From contig JAEUHH010000091.1 of assembly GCA_016795505.1 (NCBI GenBank), forward strand, positions 1 through 45,937: a DNA stretch of 45,937 nt. Direction: 5' to 3'. A program made the position numbers and the translations under genes. The stretch is from Verrucomicrobiales bacterium. GTDB lineage: Bacteria; Verrucomicrobiota; Verrucomicrobiia; Verrucomicrobiales; DEV007. The notes beneath the pieces were generated by a model. That model had not been told where the DNA came from. It made no database searches and saw only the letters and a list, made by a program, of their open reading frames with translations. Position 1 is the stretch's first letter. Each line of letters begins with the position of its first letter. Below, piece after piece: positions 22,775 to 35,005 of the stretch.

Positions 22775-23048
22775 CTTCGGAGGGGGCAGCCCTGATTTTT
22801 TTGACAGAAGCGTTCGGGCCGGGCGGCGAGAATTTCTCTTGTGGCCAGGGGGCGTGCCTGATAGCGTCGGCGCCAGAGAGGGAGGGAACCGAATCCGACA
22901 GTCTCGACACGCCCCATCGGCGACCGATTGACGATGGCGGCTTGGAACGTCTGCCATGGCTCCATTTGTTCTCGCGCCCTGTGTTTGGTCGTTGAATGAC
23001 GGCGCGCAGGGTTTCCCAGCAGATCGACCGCGCAACCGTAACGAGTCA
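22775..23048. other. non-coding stretch upstream of the quinone-cofactor operon
   Basis: No conserved gene found on either strand. It must hold the promoter of the operon beginning at 23049, but I see no clear -35/-10 pair. A TTTTTTTGACAG at about 22796-22807 could provide a -35. Confidence 0.3.
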
Positions 23049-24569
23049 ATGTCCAGGTATTCATCCCAGTTGTTGAGTCATATTGCCGGACACCGGGCCC
23101 GGCGGATGCTGATCTCCGCCGGTGCGGCGCCGAAGATCCGGCCGGAGCTGACCAAGCCGGACGACATGACGTGGCGGGATTTCACGATCCGTCTGCTCCA
23201 CATCGGGGCGGAGCTGGAGCATGGTCTGATGGTCCAGTACCTCTACGCGGCCTATTCGCTGGGCGGCGACCATCTAAGCGAGGCGGATCAGGAGGAGGTC
23301 CGGGAGTGGCAGGACTTGATCCTCACGGTGGCGCGGGAGGAAATGGGACATCTGCTGACGGTGCAGAACATCCTCTGCCTGTTGGGTGGGCCGATCACCT
23401 TCGAGCGGGAAAATCTGCCGTGGGATGGTCCGTTCTATCCGTTTCCCTTTCAGTTCGAGCCGCTGAGCAGGGCGTCATTGGGAGCTTATGTCTTTGCGGA
23501 GATGCCGGGCAACTTCGAGACGCTGGAGAAGCTCTATCAGTCCGGAACGACGGAGTTTGACCGCCTGTTTCGCGAGAAGGATCTGCCTTTCATCGAGGAG
23601 TTGGCCCGGGAATGGGTGACGCGGGGTGGGGCGATGCCGGTCGGGGAGGTTTATCACCTGATCCATGACATTCTGGCCGATCCGACGAAGATCGCCGATG
23701 CGGATTTTCGGGGGGATTCCTACCCGATGCAGGCTTCGTGGGATGATTGGGGGCGCGGTTACCATCCGCGGCCGGACTCGCCCAGCGGGGAGCCGGCGAA
23801 GCTCGATCCCAACAAAGCGAATGTGATCATCGAGCGGGTGGCGACCCGGACGCAGGCGCTCTACGCCATCCGCGAGATCTCCGGCCAGGGCGAGAATCCC
23901 GACCTGCGGCGCCCGGCGAACGAAGAGCCTTCGCACTTCGAGCGTTTCGTCGGGGTGCTGGAGGCTTTTGACAAAAAGGTGGAGGCGTGTCCGGACTGGA
24001 GCCCGTCTCGGCTGGTGCCGTGCAATCCGACGACCGGGGAAGTGTCGGATCCTCTCCATTTGCCGACCGGGACGACCCTGATTGCCAACCCGGTCTCGGC
24101 CAAATGGGCGAACTTGCTGAATTGCCGCTACCGGATGCTGCTGACTTATCTGTCGCACACCTATCGCATCGCGAGGCTCGTTGATCCGGACGAACCCAAT
24201 CTCCGCGGGGCGGTGATGCACCGGATCTTTGGTGAAATGTATCATTTGAAGGCCCTGTCCGGCATCCTGGTCCGGCTGCCGCTGACGGAAGATCCAGAGG
24301 ATCCCCGGCGCGCCGGGCCGCCTTTTGAAATGCCCTACACGCTGGCTTTGCCTCCCGATGAGATCGACTGCTGGCGCCTGCACCAGGATCTGGTGCGCAC
24401 GTCGGAGCTGATCTGCGGCGCGCTGCTCGGAGATCGGGAAGCGCTGGAGATGGGGCCGCCCGAGGGCGAGGCCTACCTCCGCACGTTGAGAAATCACGAC
24501 CAGCAGGCCATCGCCTGGCTAGACACGGTCATCGCCGGTCTCATCGCCAATGGAGGTCGACATTCATGA
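23049..24569 (+). CDS. ferritin-like protein (VioB/RebD-type PF12902 domain), first gene of quinone-cofactor operon
   Basis: 506 aa from the ATG at 23049; the longer frame upstream is unconserved. Residues about 45-240 form the ferritin-like domain found in iminophenyl-pyruvate dimer synthases (VioB, RebD, StaD) and in stand-alone proteins: HIGAELEHGLMVQYLYAAYS, then AREEMGHLLTVQNILCLLGG. The candidate metal ligands are E55 or E57, E98 and H101, with a second ExxH in the C-terminal half (GEMYHLKAL, E396/H399). Such sites bind iron or manganese. The stop overlaps the next start as ATGA, so it is coupled to the LodA-like gene. It could oxidise the product or deliver metal/oxygen chemistry; its role is unknown. 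Confidence 0.8.
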   Translation: MSRYSSQLLSHIAGHRARRMLISAGAAPKIRPELTKPDDMTWRDFTIRLLHIGAELEHGLMVQYLYAAYSLGGDHLSEADQEEVREWQDLILTVAREEMGHLLTVQNILCLLGGPITFERENLPWDGPFYPFPFQFEPLSRASLGAYVFAEMPGNFETLEKLYQSGTTEFDRLFREKDLPFIEELAREWVTRGGAMPVGEVYHLIHDILADPTKIADADFRGDSYPMQASWDDWGRGYHPRPDSPSGEPAKLDPNKANVIIERVATRTQALYAIREISGQGENPDLRRPANEEPSHFERFVGVLEAFDKKVEACPDWSPSRLVPCNPTTGEVSDPLHLPTGTTLIANPVSAKWANLLNCRYRMLLTYLSHTYRIARLVDPDEPNLRGAVMHRIFGEMYHLKALSGILVRLPLTEDPEDPRRAGPPFEMPYTLALPPDEIDCWRLHQDLVRTSELICGALLGDREALEMGPPEGEAYLRTLRNHDQQAIAWLDTVIAGLIANGGRHS

Positions 24570-26923
24570 AAATCCGCGCACTCCGCATCCTCCCGCCCTT
24601 CGCGATCGCCCGTCTGGGTTCGTCTCCGGACCCCTTGGTGAACTACTCGATCGACGACGATCCCGACTTGCCTCTGGAATTCCGCGGCATCGTCGCCCGG
24701 GAGACATTGGTGGTCGATCCTGCCACGGGAGAGATATCCGAGTCGTTTCTGCCCGAGGAGATTGCCTTCAAGGATGAGCAGGAGCGCATCCGGCCGGTCG
24801 CTCCGTTTCTCGAAGTTTTCGCTGTGACGGATGAGGACAAACTGGTCCCGCTGACGACGGCGATGCTCGTCGCCGAAGGGCTCGGGCCGGAGGATCTGTC
24901 GTGGAATGTCCGCGTGGCCAATCGCAAGGTGGCGCGGCGCACGGGCAACGAGAAGGATGCGGTCACGGCTGACTCAGGGTGGTTTTCCCATCACGAGGCC
25001 GCCCGGCTGGAGGGCCACTCGCCCCACTTTGTCAGCGAAGAGGCCTCGATCCATTTCGGAGAGGTCCGCTTCATCAGGCCGAACGAGCGATTCCCCGAGA
25101 TCCGTCTGCGCTTTACTCCGGCTCAGGGGCTGATTTACGGCCCGGACCGGCCGCCCAGAAAGCACCCCGATGTGGATCCCTACTCGGAGCCGGTAAACCA
25201 GTATGTGGTGCCGGAGGAGCGCCGCGTCTACCGGGCGACGGACGAAAAGGATAACTGGTGTGGCTTTGAGGTGAGCCCGGGGATCGACAATGCGGATCCG
25301 GATTACCAGGGGCCGTTCATGAACGAGACCCTGCCACCGTCGCTGTTTGCAATCGTGCCGCCGGCTCCCTGCTGGCTGCATGGCAACATCGCCATCAGCC
25401 GCGGCTATTTTGACGATGCCTGCGATGGGATCGTCGAGGTGCGGCTGAATCGAAAGCAGGGCGAGCCGCTTTCGGCCCTCGCGCGGGTCACGGCAGGGCC
25501 GCCCGCGATGATCCCGGACACTCTTTTCCTCCGCAATCTGGCCGACGACCTCGACCAGGTCATCCACGGTCCCGCGGTGCCTGCCGACGAACCCGCCGAA
25601 GTCACCAGGTCGCGAGCCATCGACATCGTCAGGCGGGCCTTTGAGACGGTGCGCTTCCTGAATGTCGCGGTGATGAACGGCAATCCGGTGAATGGGCAGG
25701 ATCCGCTGGCTTTCGACACAATGCCGGCCGAGGAGGCCTTCGACATGCAGCGCCTGATGCGGCCCGTGGTGCCCGAGCGCACCGCCGACACGCTGGCGAT
25801 CCTGGGGCTGCACCAGCAGGTCTTCATCGCCCTGCGCGGAGGCGCTGCACCGTGGTTTGCCGATGTCCTGCGGCGGCCGGATGAAGTCGCGGACTTTACC
25901 AACCGGGGCCGCCGGAAAATGCCCGCGATGATGTGCGGTGCCGACGGGAACTATCTCGCGCTGACCTGGCGACAGATCGACACCATCGTCCGGGCATCGC
26001 GTCTGGCTCTCGGTGCCGGCATTGAAACCAAAAATTCGACCCCGGCGATCGAGTCGCTGCGGCCCGGTCCGTTGACGCCGCGCAACCGTTCGGCACAGAT
26101 CCACTACATCGCCGCCGGGAACCCGGTGGCATCGCGCCCGCTGACGGCGATCTCAAACTGCACTCCCGGGCTGGAGGTGGACTTCCGGGCGGTCTGGCGG
26201 CGGGTTTTTGCCGGCATCGAATTGCGGGAGTGGGACAACCTGGTGATCCGGATGGACCCCGGTGCCACTGCGGATGTCCTGCCGGACCTCTCCGGTCACC
26301 GGTTGCTACGGGTGAACGGAAAGCACATGATGACCCAGGCCATCGGACCGTCGCCCGCGGATGTCGACAACCAATCGGTGGTACTGTCGACCGAGGACAA
26401 TCCGTCGGCGATCGCTCCGCTAGAGTGGTCCAACTCGCTCGCCGAGATTCTGCACCATTTCACCGGCAAACGGGTGACCTGTGATTTCACCGCCGAGGCG
26501 GTCTGGCTCGATCAGGCGGCCTGGACGGGCAAGGCGGGGGACTACATCACGCTGGAGTTGGAGGTGAGGCCCTTCTTTGATGCCGATACGGCGGTCATCT
26601 CGCCGTCACTGGCGGTGCCCGGCGAGTTGACTCAGGGGCTGTGCTCCCCCTGGCAGAACGACTACCGTGAATGCTCATGCTACTACTGGGCCGGTGCCCG
26701 CCCCGACTACGTCAATGTCGAGGCCGCGCCCTCCGGGATGAGCAAGGGCGACAACTGGATGCAGAAAGAGCGTACCGGCGACTACGTGGCCGATGACTAT
26801 GTGGACTCCCGCATCCTGCACTACGACGACCTGTTCAATGACTGGGAGAAGGTGCTGAAATTCCAGATCGGCGGGCGCGATGCCGACAAAGCGGCGTCGG
26901 CGAGCAGGCCGCAGGATAGTTGA
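24566..26923 (+). CDS. LodA-like quinone-cofactor oxidase with a QhpC-like C-terminal crosslink motif
   Basis: 785 aa, coupled to the upstream gene (ATGA) with GGAGG 9 bp before the ATG. The N-terminus (RILPPFAIARLGSS) and the block NCTPGLEVDFRAVWRR (from about residue 531) are typical of LodA/GoxA proteins, which oxidise amino acids using cysteine tryptophylquinone (CTQ) made from their own Cys and Trp. Near the C-terminus, C693, W696, D699, C703, C705, W708 and D714 lie in LCSPWQNDYREC and CYYWAGARPD. Their order resembles QhpC, where Cys27-Asp33 and Cys41-Asp49 are thioether-linked and Cys37-Trp43 is CTQ. C639, 69 residues before W708, is an alternative CTQ Cys (LodA spacing is 65). No signal peptide. 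Substrate unknown. Confidence 0.85.
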   Translation: MKIRALRILPPFAIARLGSSPDPLVNYSIDDDPDLPLEFRGIVARETLVVDPATGEISESFLPEEIAFKDEQERIRPVAPFLEVFAVTDEDKLVPLTTAMLVAEGLGPEDLSWNVRVANRKVARRTGNEKDAVTADSGWFSHHEAARLEGHSPHFVSEEASIHFGEVRFIRPNERFPEIRLRFTPAQGLIYGPDRPPRKHPDVDPYSEPVNQYVVPEERRVYRATDEKDNWCGFEVSPGIDNADPDYQGPFMNETLPPSLFAIVPPAPCWLHGNIAISRGYFDDACDGIVEVRLNRKQGEPLSALARVTAGPPAMIPDTLFLRNLADDLDQVIHGPAVPADEPAEVTRSRAIDIVRRAFETVRFLNVAVMNGNPVNGQDPLAFDTMPAEEAFDMQRLMRPVVPERTADTLAILGLHQQVFIALRGGAAPWFADVLRRPDEVADFTNRGRRKMPAMMCGADGNYLALTWRQIDTIVRASRLALGAGIETKNSTPAIESLRPGPLTPRNRSAQIHYIAAGNPVASRPLTAISNCTPGLEVDFRAVWRRVFAGIELREWDNLVIRMDPGATADVLPDLSGHRLLRVNGKHMMTQAIGPSPADVDNQSVVLSTEDNPSAIAPLEWSNSLAEILHHFTGKRVTCDFTAEAVWLDQAAWTGKAGDYITLELEVRPFFDADTAVISPSLAVPGELTQGLCSPWQNDYRECSCYYWAGARPDYVNVEAAPSGMSKGDNWMQKERTGDYVADDYVDSRILHYDDLFNDWEKVLKFQIGGRDADKAASASRPQDS
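26642..26707 (+). other. candidate multi-crosslink/CTQ motif in the LodA-like protein
   Basis: Codons C693 to D714. Recalled QhpC has LC-x5-D, then x3, then Cys, then Trp-Trp-Pro, then D; here LC-x5-D-x3-C-x-C-x2-W-x5-D. The Cys693/Asp699 spacing (6) equals QhpC Cys27/Asp33, and Trp708/Asp714 (6) equals Trp43/Asp49. Cys703 to Trp708 is 5 rather than 6. The downstream DDLFNDWEKV resembles QhpC DDVMQDWRKL. The comparison is from memory. Confidence 0.6.
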
Positions 26924-28349
26924 GCAAGCCATCGTGCAAATACTGGCCACAGATCTGAATGGCGAACGGCGAACCGAGCGCCTGAGGCGCACGGCCCGCA
27001 GCGTCATGGCTGTTTCCCGGCCCCGGGCGGAGCAGATGCACCTGATCGAATCCCCGGACGGACTGGGCCAGGGTCACCTGTTCGTGGTGGACGGGAGCCG
27101 GCTCTTCGATGTGGAGGCAGGGTTGTTTTCTGAGCTAAGACAGACGGCTGGTGGCGAAAGCCTGTCCCGTCTGCTGGATCGGGTGGGGCTTGGCGGGCCT
27201 CCCCGGATCGACGATGAGCCGCTGACAGCCCCACCGGTGAGGGCTCTGTCGCTTGCGATCGCGCAAAAGTGCAATCTGGGCTGCACCTATTGCTATGCCC
27301 AACAGGGTGAGTTCGGCGGGGCCGCCAAGAACATGTCACCTGGGATAGCCGACGCATCGGTGGATCTGCTGCTCGCCGATGCCGCGCCGGGCGAGCGGTA
27401 CAATCTAGCCTTTCTCGGAGGCGAACCGCTCGCGAACCGGGCCACCCTGCAGGCCACTACCCGGCGGGCCGCCGCCCTGGCGGGGGAACGGGGCGCAACC
27501 CTGACGTTTTCCATCACCACGAACGGCACCCTGGTCACGGAGGCGGACGCCGATTTTTTTGAGGAACACGGATTTGCTGTCACGATCAGTCTCGACGGTC
27601 CGGCAGAGGTCCACGATGCCCTGCGCCCCTACAAGGGAGGCCGCGGCAGTTATGAGACCGTGATGGAAAGAATCACGCCGCTTCTTCGCCGACAGCGCCA
27701 GATGCAGGTATCAGCCCGGGTGACCGTGACGCCGCGAAACCTGCGCTTGCGTGAGACGCTCGAGCATTTCCTCGCGGCAGGGTTTCACAGCGTCGGCTTT
27801 TCTCCCTTGCTCCGTTCGCCGAGTGGCGCGGATGAAATGTCCATCGAGACGCTGGAGACGATGCTGGGCGAGATGATCGATTGCGGCCTGGAATACGAGC
27901 GCCGCACCCGAAAGGGAGAGCGTTACGCGTTTGCCAACCTCACCAATGCCTTGAAGGAAATTCATCGGGGTACCCATCGGCCCTATCCCTGTGGAGCGGG
28001 AGCCGGCTATCTCGGGGTGTCTGCGGATGGCGACCTGGCCGCCTGCCATCGGTTCGTCGGCGACGACGAGGGACAGATGGGATCGGTGCTGGGCGGATTG
28101 GACACAGCGAGGCGCGGCGACTGGCTGGCGGAGCGCCATGTCCACCGCCAGGAGCCCTGCCGATCATGCTGGGCACGCTATCTGTGTGGTGGCGGGTGCC
28201 ACCATGAGGTGATCCAAAAAGGCAGGCCCGCGTGCGACTACATCCGCGGCTGGCTGCACTATTGTCTGGAGGCCTATCTGCGCCTCACGGCGGCGGGTAT
28301 GTATCCGGATCCTGCCGAAGCACGGGCTGAGGGGATGACGAACCGGTGA
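26880..28349 (+). CDS. radical SAM/SPASM maturase, QhpD (PeaB)-like
   Basis: 489 aa as an open frame overlapping the oxidase gene by 44 bp; starts at 27006 (MAVSRP) or 27036 (MHLIESPDG) are more natural because homology begins there. The radical SAM cluster motif is CNLGCTYC (C131, C135, C138). The SPASM region has YPCGAGAGYLGVSADGDLAA, CHRFVGD, PCRSCWARYLCGGGCHHEV and ACDYIRGWL (C371, C389, C427, C430, C436, C440, C452), ligands for two auxiliary Fe-S clusters. This layout is that of QhpD, which forms Cys-to-Asp/Glu methylene thioethers in QhpC. No qhpA, qhpB or qhpC is nearby; the LodA-like protein is the obvious substrate. Confidence 0.88.
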   Translation: MPTKRRRRAGRRIVEQAIVQILATDLNGERRTERLRRTARSVMAVSRPRAEQMHLIESPDGLGQGHLFVVDGSRLFDVEAGLFSELRQTAGGESLSRLLDRVGLGGPPRIDDEPLTAPPVRALSLAIAQKCNLGCTYCYAQQGEFGGAAKNMSPGIADASVDLLLADAAPGERYNLAFLGGEPLANRATLQATTRRAAALAGERGATLTFSITTNGTLVTEADADFFEEHGFAVTISLDGPAEVHDALRPYKGGRGSYETVMERITPLLRRQRQMQVSARVTVTPRNLRLRETLEHFLAAGFHSVGFSPLLRSPSGADEMSIETLETMLGEMIDCGLEYERRTRKGERYAFANLTNALKEIHRGTHRPYPCGAGAGYLGVSADGDLAACHRFVGDDEGQMGSVLGGLDTARRGDWLAERHVHRQEPCRSCWARYLCGGGCHHEVIQKGRPACDYIRGWLHYCLEAYLRLTAAGMYPDPAEARAEGMTNR

Positions 28350-28355
28350 CCGGCC

Positions 28356-29783
28356 ATGGCGATCCAGTGCGACATCTGCATCATCGGAGGAGGACCGGCC
28401 GGAAGCGTCCTCGCCTCCCGGCTGGCGGCCTGGGGCTGGAATGTCATCGTCGTCGAGCGGGCGGCGTTTCCCCGCCGGCATCTGGGGGAATCGCTCTCCC
28501 CGGGCGTGTTGCCCCTGCTGGAGACGATTGGAGCCGCGGACGCCATTGAGAGCGCCGGTTTTACCCGCGTGAGACGGGTCTCAGTCGATTGGGACGTGGC
28601 TACCGAACGCGACGATCCCGCCGGCCGAGGGCTGCTTGTGGATCGGGGTCGTTTTGATCGGTTGCTGCTCGATCATGCCCGGGGACGGGGAGCCAGGGTG
28701 TTGCAACCGGCCAGAGCCGGCCGTCGACGCTGGACGGGGAGCGCCTGGGAGGTGGAGGTGACGTTGGGAACCCGCCCGATGACGCTGCAGGCGACATTTT
28801 TGGCGGACGCCTCGGGCCGGGGTGGGATCACCGGGAGCCGTCGCCCCACCGGGGCAAGGACGGTGGCCCTGCACGGCTACTGGGAGGGCAAGGGGCTTCC
28901 CAGCCATCCGAAGATCGAAGCCGGGCCGAACCGATGGCATTGGGGTGTCCCACTTCCGGACGGCTCCTACAACACGCTGGTATTTCTGGATCCCGCCGAT
29001 CTGAAAACCATGTCCGGCACGCTCGGGGAAAAATTTCACACCTTGTTGGCCGGATCCGGGCTGATTCCACGCGGCGCCGAGGCATTCCTGTCCGGGCCGG
29101 TTCGAGCCTGTGATGCGACGCCCTATCTGGATGAGGCGTGCGTGTCTGACGCGTTCATCCGGGTCGGGGATGCCGCTCTCGCGTTGGATCCGCTGTCCTC
29201 AAGCGGTGTGCAAAAGGCGATTCAGAGTGCCCTGTCGGGCTCAGTCGTCGTGAACACCCTCTTGAGACGGCCCGAATCCGCAGAGTTGGCCCGCCAGTAT
29301 TTCCTTCACAGTCTCAGCGAGGCATCGGCCCGTCACCAGGAGTGGGCGGGCGCCTACTACGGCCTCGTCGCCTGTCGTCGAGCCGATCCCTTTTGGCAAA
29401 AGCGGGCCACGGGAGTGGCTTCCGGGCCTCTTTCGCCGGAAATGGGTGAAGGCATCGCCGGGCTCACGCCGGAGACCCGGCTGCGACTCTCCCCGGACGT
29501 GAGGATTCGCCAGGTGCCCTGCGTGGGCGACTCGTTTATCGAGGCGCGGCCCGCCGTTTGTTCCACCGCTCTGGGCACGCCGGTGGCTTATCTGGGTGGT
29601 GTGGAGCTTGTTCCTCTGATCTGTGGCGTCAGGGATGGCATGACGGTGCGCGAGTTGGTGACAAACTGGTCGCGGGACATGGCCCCGGCGAGAGGGATGG
29701 AATCACTCCGATGGATGGTGTCACGTGGTCTGCTGATTGCCGGTGCGGCCAGACAGGCTGCGGAAAAAGGAGGGGGCTCATGA
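28356..29783 (+). CDS. FAD-dependent monooxygenase, QhpG/LodB-like (tryptophan-halogenase superfamily)
   Basis: 475 aa. Rossmann FAD motif IIGGGPAGSVLASRLA (residues 9-24), FPRRHLGESLSPGVLPLL, and a second FAD motif RVGDAALALDPLSSSGVQKA. These blocks are those of flavin monooxygenases related to tryptophan halogenases, the group that includes LodB/GoxB (needed for CTQ formation in LodA/GoxA) and QhpG (hydroxylates the QhpC Trp). It lacks the halogenase WxWxIP active-site string as far as I can see. The C-terminal 90 residues (PVAYLGGVELVPLICGVRD, GMTVRELVTNW) look like a small winged-helix or PqqD-like domain, possibly for peptide recognition. It starts 6 bp after the radical SAM stop. Confidence 0.85.
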   Translation: MAIQCDICIIGGGPAGSVLASRLAAWGWNVIVVERAAFPRRHLGESLSPGVLPLLETIGAADAIESAGFTRVRRVSVDWDVATERDDPAGRGLLVDRGRFDRLLLDHARGRGARVLQPARAGRRRWTGSAWEVEVTLGTRPMTLQATFLADASGRGGITGSRRPTGARTVALHGYWEGKGLPSHPKIEAGPNRWHWGVPLPDGSYNTLVFLDPADLKTMSGTLGEKFHTLLAGSGLIPRGAEAFLSGPVRACDATPYLDEACVSDAFIRVGDAALALDPLSSSGVQKAIQSALSGSVVVNTLLRRPESAELARQYFLHSLSEASARHQEWAGAYYGLVACRRADPFWQKRATGVASGPLSPEMGEGIAGLTPETRLRLSPDVRIRQVPCVGDSFIEARPAVCSTALGTPVAYLGGVELVPLICGVRDGMTVRELVTNWSRDMAPARGMESLRWMVSRGLLIAGAARQAAEKGGGS

Positions 29784-33685: not shown

Positions 33686-35005
33686 ATGAGCCAGCCGATC
33701 CAATTTCCCCTCCCCGCCAGTGAGCTGCCCACTCACTGGTCCAATCTGCTGCCGGACTTTCCCGAGCCCCTGCCGCCACCCCTGCATCCCGGCACCGGGG
33801 AGCCGGTCACGCCCGACCTGATGGAGGCGCTGTTTCCGGCGACCCTCGTGGCCCAGGAAATGTGCGGCGACGAGACCGTCGAAATCCCGCAGGAGGTGCG
33901 GGATGTCTACTCACTCTATCGACCCACGCCGCTGCTGCGGGCGGTGAGACTCGAGAAGGCTCTCAATACGCCGGCCCACATCTATTACAAATACGAAGGG
34001 GTGAGCCCGGTCGGCAGCCACAAGCCGAACACCGCCATTCCACAGGCTTACTACAACAAGATCGCCGGCACGAAGCGCCTCGCCTCCGAGACCGGCGCCG
34101 GTCAATGGGGCTCATCGCTGGCTTTTGCCTGTAGTCTGTTCGGGCTCGAATGCACCATCTACATGGTCAAGATCAGCTTCCAGCAAAAGCCCTACCGGAA
34201 GCTCCTCATGCAGACCTATGGGGCCGAGGTCCACGGCAGTCCGAGCCTGCGCACGGAGTTTGGCCGCAAGGTGCTGGCTGACCATCCCGACAGCCACGGC
34301 AGCCTGGGCATCGCCATTTCCGAGGCGATCGAGGATCAGGCCACCCACCCGGGCACCAAGTATTCGCTGGGCAGCGTGCTCAATCACGTCTGTCTCCACC
34401 AGACCGTGATCGGCCAGGAGACGATCAAGCAGATGGAAATGGCCGGCGAAGAGCCCGACATCGTCATCGGTTGCTCGGGCGGTGGCAGCAATTTTGCCGG
34501 GATCGCCTTCCCCTTCGTGCGGAAAAAGATCCGCGAGGGCAGGCGCTACCGCATCATTGCCGTCGAGCCGGCGTCGTGCCCGTCGCTGACGCAGGGCGAA
34601 CTGCGCTACGACTTCGGCGACACGGCCATGACCACGCCGCTCATGATGATGCACACGCTGGGCCACGATTTCATGCCGCCGAGCATCCATGCCGGCGGTC
34701 TGCGTTACCACGGCATGTCGCCCATGGTGAGCCATTGTTTGAAGCTCGGCCTCATCGAGGCGGCCGCCGTGCCTCAGTTGAAAGTATTCGAAGCCGCCGT
34801 CCAGTTCGCCCGCAGTGAGGGCATCGTGCCCGCGCCCGAGTCGGCCCACGGCATCGCCACCGTCATCGATGAGGCGGTCCGGTGCCGCGAGGAAGGGAGG
34901 AAGGAAGTCATCGTCTTCAATCTCAGCGGGAATGGCCTGCTCGACCTGGCGGCCTACGATTCCTTCTTGTCCGGCAAAATGATGGATTCAGGGGACGACG
35001 CGTGA
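33686..35005 (+). CDS. trpB2: tryptophan synthase beta-like protein TrpB2
   Basis: 439 aa. PLP lysine K113 in [11 protein letters not shown], the [12 protein letters not shown] loop, and the phosphate-binding [11 protein letters not shown]. The extended N-terminus with YRPTPLLRA and the variant HKPNTA place it in the TrpB2 group, which condenses indole and serine without a fixed TrpA partner. No trpA is present nearby. The ATG has CGGAG directly abutting it, closer than usual, so a different start cannot be excluded. Transcribed separately from the quinone operon. Confidence 0.93.

Follow-up and report, generated by a model that had tools for sequence, protein, structure and literature searches.

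How does a LodA-like quinoprotein come to carry the cysteine pattern of QhpC, the gamma subunit of quinohemoprotein amine dehydrogenase (QHNDH), and what would a QhpD-like radical S-adenosylmethionine (SAM) enzyme do beside it? The question is raised by contig JAEUHH010000091.1 of a Verrucomicrobiales bacterium (assembly GCA_016795505.1), of which positions 1 to 45,937 were analysed and are called the window below. An initial annotation of this DNA had proposed that QhpC and the C-terminus of LodA, both bearers of cysteine tryptophylquinone (CTQ), are homologous. The pattern is confirmed, and its interpretation as the mark of a CTQ oxidase with the LodA fold and Qhp-type maturation is supported by sequence and gene neighbourhood; for the LodA-like protein itself, we infer the thioethers, the hydroxylation, the CTQ, the oxidase activity and the substrate.

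A QhpC-like motif in a LodA-like protein

The motif lies near the end of a protein of 785 residues. Translation of 26642-26707 on the plus strand gives CSPWQNDYRECSCYYWAGARPD, residues 693-714 of the open reading frame (ORF) at 24566-26923, and bears out the spacing initially annotated, C693-x5-D699-x3-C703-x-C705-x2-W708-x5-D714. The antisense strand contains a stop in the same register. The features concerned are the following.

24566..26923, plus strand: LodA-like quinoprotein, 785 residues (ORF; LodA_N, weak LodA_C; structure match to LodA/GoxA)
26480..26482, plus strand: C639, rejected as the CTQ cysteine (conserved as Cys in 12 of 14 sequences)
26642..26707, plus strand: CTQ motif C693-D714 with QhpC-like cysteines (translation, homologue alignments)
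26642..26644, plus strand: C693, putative thioether donor to D699 (in register with QhpC C27; LodA A506, GoxA G672)
26660..26662, plus strand: D699, active-site Asp and proposed thioether acceptor (aligned with QhpC D33, LodA D512, GoxA D678)
26672..26674, plus strand: C703, proposed CTQ cysteine (aligned with QhpC C37, LodA C516, GoxA C682)
26678..26680, plus strand: C705, putative thioether donor to D714 (counterpart of QhpC C41, one residue out of register)
26687..26689, plus strand: W708, proposed CTQ tryptophan (aligned with QhpC W43, LodA W581, GoxA W697)
26705..26707, plus strand: D714 (register of QhpC D49; Asp also in the LodA-type protein of locus L058, which has no radical SAM gene nearby)
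26825..26854, plus strand: DDLFNDWEKV, residues 754-763, resembling the QhpC C-terminus (W760 invariant)

Pfam LodA_N is matched above its cut-off (4.1e-6; 27.4 bits against 26.3), while LodA_C gives a weak match at residues 682-709 (18 bits, below the cut-off of 25). Compared with the PDB, the full-length AlphaFold model matches LodA (2ymw/3wev, Z 11.0, root-mean-square deviation 3.7, 191 residues aligned) and GoxA (Z 9.5-10.2), with unrelated rows at Z 7.5 or below; the LodA and GoxA matches cover the N-terminal half, mainly residues 3-370. A plain phmmer search of the PDB with the protein gave no relevant match; a family profile was required to reach GoxA, and in that comparison the motif block on its own is weak (2.5 bits). 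The protein has no match to PF08992 (QhpC) at E 0.01 and, by inspection, no QhpC-type leader, the motif starting 692 residues into it. The predicted local distance difference test (pLDDT) score is 54 for the full-length model and about 28 at the motif, and 58 and about 35, respectively, for a separate C-terminal model. The latter matched PDZ-like and other structures only weakly at residues ~542-684 (Z 6.0 or below), with LodA and GoxA absent among the best 50 rows. The corresponding insert before the CTQ motif (window ~26189-26617) is weakly PDZ-like in the predicted model, a likeness that we find unconvincing.

Conservation among homologues with the radical SAM gene, on which the initial annotation had staked its claim, was found throughout: C693, D699, C703, C705, W708 and D714 do not vary in any of the 26 proteins in which the region is preserved, namely the window protein, those of 15 genome loci and those of 10 plasmid loci. 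Left out of these counts are L008, whose contig ends before the motif, L029, which has no C part, and L067, in which no block was found; the plasmid regions were fetched for 11 of 20 records. Two further Rhizobiales copies also carry the motif. Among 14 aligned sequences including the window's (two of which, L006 and L007, hardly differ over the aligned stretch), 17 of the 22 columns at residues 693-714 are invariant. Segments of 22 residues across the C-terminal part have a mean of 5.6 invariant columns and a maximum of 18 (starts 688 and 689), and conservation in this part peaks in the stretch that includes the motif block. Of the 5,229 ORFs from the loci fetched for this question, 48 show the pattern (overlapping gene copies included). 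Because all 48 belong to the LodA superfamily and none of 20,000 shuffles of the LodA-like protein reproduces the pattern, the motif is not a product of chance. In the phylum of the window, the family profile matches 2 of 288 genomes: the window's own and, weakly, G240, where the match is a LodA-type protein (L021) without the extra cysteines.

Register with LodA, GoxA and QhpC

Alignment places the motif on the CTQ sites of all three known proteins. The family profile aligns to GoxA at PGDLTKWMGIPWQSD678AASC682, and the alignment of a GoxA relative anchors GoxA W697; we take C682 and W697 to be the CTQ pair of GoxA, which fits the alignment. In LodA, the alignment of a LodA-type relative with PDB 3weu fixes C507-P-W-Q-A-D512-F-F-N-C516 and S-Y-W-W581-P-P-Q, in which C516 and W581 are the CTQ residues (PMC4417212; this and the other papers are cited from excerpts of their text). 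In the fetched qhp operons the QhpC block reads LC27QPMEAD33LYGC37xDPC41WW43PAQVxD49, and six fetched qhpC genes (five annotated, one assigned by similarity) agree on C27-x5-D33-x3-C37-x3-C41-x-W43-x5-D49, so that the QhpC numbering initially given is correct. The bonds of QhpC are C7-E16, C27-D33, C41-D49 and C37-W43 (PMC8172795), and a correspondence between QhpC D33 and GoxA D678 has been published before (PMC7876137).

Since D699, C703 and W708 fall on the CTQ triad of LodA (D512/C516/W581), GoxA (D678/C682/W697) and QhpC (D33/C37/W43), the alignment makes C703-W708 the likely CTQ pair of the LodA-like protein. C693 stands in the register of QhpC C27, where LodA has A506 and GoxA G672, and D714 in that of D49. 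The partners of the QhpC bonds C27-D33, C37-W43 and C41-D49 are thus all present, with the counterpart of C41 displaced by one. A cysteine one residue after the C693 position, seen in LodA (C507) and in L064, was not counted as an extra cysteine. The gap from CTQ cysteine to tryptophan is 5 in the window family, 6 in QhpC, 15 in GoxA and 65 in LodA; C703 therefore sits one residue nearer its tryptophan than in QhpC, as had been remarked. The likeness noted for DDLFNDWEKV also holds, the QhpC C-terminus reading DDVMQDWRKL and W760 being invariant in 14 of 14 aligned sequences, the window's included.

A gap of 5 also occurs in two LodA-type proteins without the extra cysteines, L058 and L021 (C-x4-W, followed by WWPTQRPD and WWPAQRPD, respectively), which form a candidate sister group; the L058 region contains no radical SAM gene. 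A divergent QhpC (L063, 4501-4842), encoded on a Novosphingobium plasmid that also bears a radical SAM-linked LodA-like cassette (L025), reads GLCQPVERDIYDCYVTCFWPVQVPDHVN, close to the GLCSPWQNDYRECSC-YYWASARPDYVN of the window family, and is by hidden Markov model (HMM) score the QhpC nearest to that family.

Putative maturase genes of the Qhp type

The LodA-like gene is followed by two genes with their closest known relatives in the qhp system and preceded by a ferritin-like gene.

26880..28349, plus strand: QhpD-like radical SAM/SPASM enzyme (TIGR03906, 322.7 bits; best PDB match CteB 5wgg, 3e-48)
28356..29783, plus strand: QhpG-like peptidyl-Trp flavin monooxygenase (NF049967, 319.4 bits; best PDB match 7ctq, 1.3e-36)
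22956..24569, plus strand: ferritin-like / VioB-like protein (PF12902, 1.8e-21; VioB TIGR04492, 33 bits, far below cut-off)

The radical SAM enzyme has CX3CX2C at residues 131-138 and further cysteines of SPASM type; its true start may lie downstream of 26880. TIGR03906 (QhpD) is its best match among all NCBIfam models, an annotated QhpD (L033) scoring 707 bits, and it also matches the ranthipeptide-type model NF047865 (275 bits). A loss of its N-terminal domain was considered; in a profile comparison this part aligns with QhpD N-termini at 98 %, but over a stretch that includes the start of CX3CX2C. The name CteB for 5wgg is taken from PMC7876137.

The flavoprotein passes the QhpG equivalog cut-off (319.4 against 240 bits, positions 1-422 of the 423 of model NF049967 aligned) and scores far lower to LodB (105.9 bits) and GoxB (103.5 bits), so that the maturase adjoining this LodA-like gene is of QhpG rather than LodB/GoxB type; its best PDB match, 7ctq, is a peptidyl tryptophan dihydroxylase. 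This match is absent from the initial annotation and adds to the Qhp likeness. The haem and beta-propeller families of QhpA and QhpB were not found among the larger window ORFs, which were those scanned, and neither QhpE nor QhpF was seen in the cassette.

Sixteen homologous loci come from Verrucomicrobia, Alpha- and Gammaproteobacteria, Gemmatimonadetes, a metagenome-assembled genome (MAG) of Cytophagales and an unplaced MAG. The radical SAM gene is present in 14 of them (not in L008, whose contig ends, nor in L012) and the flavoprotein gene in 11 (not in L008, L011, L012, L016 and L017); apart from L012, the loci without the latter sit on contigs of 3-5 kb.

The ferritin-like gene, whose start probably lies downstream of 22956 and whose stop overlaps the LodA-like start, stands beside the LodA-like gene in many other cassettes. 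Further downstream, 33686-35005 of the window encodes a TrpB-like pyridoxal-phosphate enzyme (TIGR01415, PRK12391) with no evident link to the cassette.

The extra cysteines go with the radical SAM gene

The radical SAM gene adjoins 25 of the 26 motif carriers, with a QhpG-type flavoprotein gene usually coming after it, and both further Rhizobiales copies have motif and radical SAM gene alike. Neither extra cysteine occurs in any of 11 LodA/GoxA-type proteins with a readable block, and none of 12 LodA/GoxA-type regions has the gene; eight of these regions come from a search with a GoxA fragment lacking the motif (26 records) and four from a search with a LodA-type protein (37 records). The same holds among 297 Rhizobiales genomes, of which 10 have a LodA_N match over cut-off, all without the extra cysteines, and three have the motif family. 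When the resulting 12 genomes (the two sets share one) were searched for the radical SAM enzyme, exactly the three with the motif family gave a strong match (382-678 bits), and the other nine gave 60 bits or less, or none. The copy in G547 has one internal stop. In that genome, locus L089 (G547:C2:1183000-1199000) holds, within 16 kb, a GoxA/LodA-type gene without the extra cysteines and a radical SAM-linked relative with them.

The flavoproteins divide likewise. Those linked to the radical SAM gene in the window (P0005) and in L022, L024 and L026 all exceed the QhpG cut-off, and those of L028 and L032 are weaker with QhpG still best; beside LodA/GoxA-type genes, LodB or GoxB was best in all five tested.

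The radical SAM enzyme might have served a QhpC encoded elsewhere in the genome. This is unlikely, because PF08992 has no match in 11 genomes (the window's own and 10 other cassette genomes, several of them draft), while the same search matched all four qhp plasmid records used as positive control. It matched none of 14 named control genomes, so that the plasmid control carries the weight.

Common descent or convergence

The two CTQ systems have been called convergent (PMC7876137). Compared by hhalign, the window family and the LodA type reach 97.2 %, the LodA type and QhpC 87.9 % (score 40.5), and the window family and QhpC 59.2 % (score 31.7). No column shuffle attains the real score, whether in 100 for the window family against LodA or in 300 of QhpC for each QhpC pair; the profile alignment with QhpC and LodA/GoxA that had been suggested as a check thus comes out in favour of the relationship. 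An HMM of four QhpC sequences searched against the 5,229 ORFs retrieves 10 QhpC entries and then, at E 1 or below, 38 ORFs, all of the LodA superfamily (overlapping gene copies occur in both sets, and the 38 hold 18 distinct motif blocks); 34 of the 72 LodA-superfamily ORFs are left unmatched. The best match outside QhpC is weak (E 0.0026), and with a combined HMM the best QhpC match reaches 3e-5 and the remaining ones 0.006-0.07. It is the specificity of the matches that makes the link persuasive, since the single E-values are weak.

These scores support, at the level of sequence, both the proposed homology of QhpC and the LodA C-terminus and the suggestion that it explains the QhpD-like enzyme, the two extra cysteines going with the radical SAM gene. 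We lean towards the view that the CTQ domains of QHNDH and LodA/GoxA derive from one ancestor, with the radical SAM-linked LodA family as a living intermediate. The intermediate would then be a LodA-fold oxidase with the thioether pattern of QhpC and QhpD/QhpG maturases, sometimes with a separate quinone-bearing subunit.

Alternatively, CTQ proteins of separate origin might have acquired the same maturases and arrived at the motif independently. The shortness of the shared stretch (~40 to 100 residues) and the mere 59 % reached by the window family alone against QhpC speak for such convergence. Against it, the likeness extends past the modified residues (LC.P...D...C, W-A-x-x-P-D-x-V-N and the C-terminal D-W-x-x-L), LodA types without the extra cysteines are still matched to QhpC with 88 % probability, at a score that none of 300 shuffles equals, and after QhpC itself the QhpC HMM matches only LodA-superfamily ORFs. 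On balance, convergence appears unlikely.

A proposed maturation route and its alternatives

We consider it quite probable that the LodA-like protein has the LodA fold, works as a CTQ oxidase and owes its maturation to Qhp-type enzymes, with one thioether between C693 and D699 and another between C705 and D714. It would be an amine or amino-acid oxidase whose CTQ is built from C703 and W708 and whose active-site carboxylate is D699; unlike LodA and GoxA, it would be matured by the Qhp-type pair encoded directly downstream. QhpD is the enzyme that forms Cys-to-Asp/Glu thioethers, and within a QhpCDG complex QhpG carries out the dihydroxylation of Trp43 (PMC7876137). By analogy, the QhpD-like enzyme would link C693 to D699 and C705 to D714 and thereby pin the short CTQ loop in place, the QhpG-like flavoprotein would hydroxylate W708, and closure of the C703-W708 bond would yield CTQ, an order of events that we infer. 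An oxidase is favoured over a dehydrogenase because no haem subunit (QhpA/B) was seen in the cassette, and reoxidation is probably by O2, as in LodA.

Several observations weigh against this proposal. The putative substrate is a protein of 785 residues, or a subunit of 260-300, without a QhpC-type leader; C705 stands three residues before the tryptophan where QhpC C41 stands two before; the C7-E16 pair of QhpC has no counterpart, with no cysteine ~20 residues before C693; and D714 is not diagnostic, as L058 has Asp there and no radical SAM gene nearby. At 322.7 bits, the radical SAM enzyme lies below the 453-bit QhpD equivalog cut-off. Both AlphaFold models fall below pLDDT 50 at the motif and yield no Cys-Asp or Cys-Trp distances. 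In L012 (8001-10379, a Gemmatimonadetes MAG) the motif is intact, with glycine at the C639 position, and neither a radical SAM nor a QhpG-like gene adjoins, nor is there a radical SAM match in the 3.1-Mb MAG; L030 and L031 have no QhpG-like neighbour at blastp 1e-5. Because the homologues share ancestry and were collected through their likeness to the window protein, their associations are not independent events, and the LodA/GoxA-type regions compared were a chosen part (8 of 26 and 4 of 37 records).

The CTQ might instead form as in LodA, with C693 and C705 binding a metal or forming a disulfide, while the radical SAM enzyme introduces a different modification or has another cassette protein, such as the ferritin-like one, as its target. 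The C-x-C spacing could indeed bind a metal, the chemistry of the proposed route is itself putative, and a ferritin-like gene neighbours many cassettes. Yet the enzyme is closest to QhpD, a former of Cys-to-Asp/Glu thioethers (PMC7876137), and the Asp partners lie at QhpC spacing; as for the ferritin-like protein, its genes also adjoin LodA types without a radical SAM gene in the region (L057, L058), and it is the extra cysteines that track that gene. We regard this alternative as distinctly improbable. That the CTQ has been lost and the protein is a non-catalytic relative is very unlikely: no supporting point was found, all 26 proteins, from several phyla, retain the CTQ residues, and the maturase genes are kept nearly as often. 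Least likely is C639 as the CTQ cysteine, an option left open initially: it lies 69 residues before W708, near the 65 of LodA C516-W581, and is Cys in 12 of 14 aligned sequences, but an ungapped block pairs C703 with C516 and C682, and in place of C639 there is Gly in L012 and Ala in L017.

Modular variants of the family

In Mycetohabitans, Rhizobium and Mesorhizobium (L022, L024, L026, L027), the LodA-like protein is encoded as two genes, an N part of ~460-570 residues and a C part of ~260-300 residues bearing the motif, followed by the radical SAM and flavoprotein genes. The second of these adjacent genes, with the CTQ motif, resembles one for a separate quinone subunit; therefore, the quinone-bearing part can be a polypeptide of its own, as QhpC is in QHNDH. 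On Streptomyces and Nostoc plasmids and, according to ORF analysis, in Microvirga, the C part is fused to a ferritin-like domain, with the CTQ part at the N-terminus (L028 8921-10810, L031 8976-10772, L032 5962-7857); in L028 and L031 the radical SAM gene lies between the fusion gene and the N part.

Dyp-type peroxidase genes stand near two variant clusters (L028 4683-5951, L032 10425-11957) and possibly serve H2O2 disposal. On an Azospirillum plasmid (L029, 5977-8204), the cluster contains an N part together with a radical SAM gene that is truncated ahead of an IS3 transposase; the C part was not found in it.

Relation to known systems

The window family shares with the LodA/GoxA oxidases (PF17990/PF18417; PDB 2ymw, 3weu, 6byw) the N-terminal fold (Z ~10-11), the PWQ.D...C block with CTQ Cys and Trp, a downstream flavoprotein gene and, sometimes, a ferritin-like gene nearby. 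It differs in the two extra cysteines and the QhpD-like gene, in the QhpG rather than LodB/GoxB type of the flavoprotein, in the short C-x4-W loop, shared among the LodA types examined only by L058 and L021, in the sub-threshold LodA_C match and in the separation of N and C parts into two genes in several lineages. With QhpC and its partners QhpD and QhpG it has in common the Cys/Asp/Trp order, the register of C27, D33, C37, W43 and D49 and the closest maturase families. Unlike the QHNDH gamma subunit, it lacks a C7-E16 pair, its cassette shows neither a haem alpha nor a beta subunit, nor a leader, QhpE or QhpF, the C41 counterpart is shifted by one, and the motif lies inside a 785-residue enzyme. 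The ranthipeptide maturases PapB and CteB belong to the same radical SAM/SPASM branch (NF047865, 275 bits; CteB 5wgg), and PapB forms Cys-Asp thioethers (PMC11002830); their substrates are short peptides, unlike the enzyme domain proposed as target here.

A lodB-like gene lies near all but one of the lodA-like genes surveyed in PMC4417212, the excerpts of which make no mention of a radical SAM gene near them. No report of a LodA-like protein joined with a radical SAM gene appears among the open-access literature matches listed. In QHNDH, CTQ arises through a radical SAM enzyme and a peptidyl-Trp dihydroxylase, and in LodA/GoxA through a supposedly autocatalytic first hydroxylation and LodB/GoxB (PMC7876137).

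Implications

Altogether, the findings suggest a shared ancestor for two cofactor systems that have been called convergent, and a LodA scaffold bearing a Qhp-type motif and accompanied by Qhp-type maturases allows common descent to be tested directly. The same scaffold with and without thioethers also offers a natural set-up for asking what Cys-Asp thioethers do. If the proposed route is true, a radical SAM thioether maturase acts inside a full-size enzyme, not on a leader-borne peptide, and radical SAM thioether chemistry would extend to the active site of such an enzyme.

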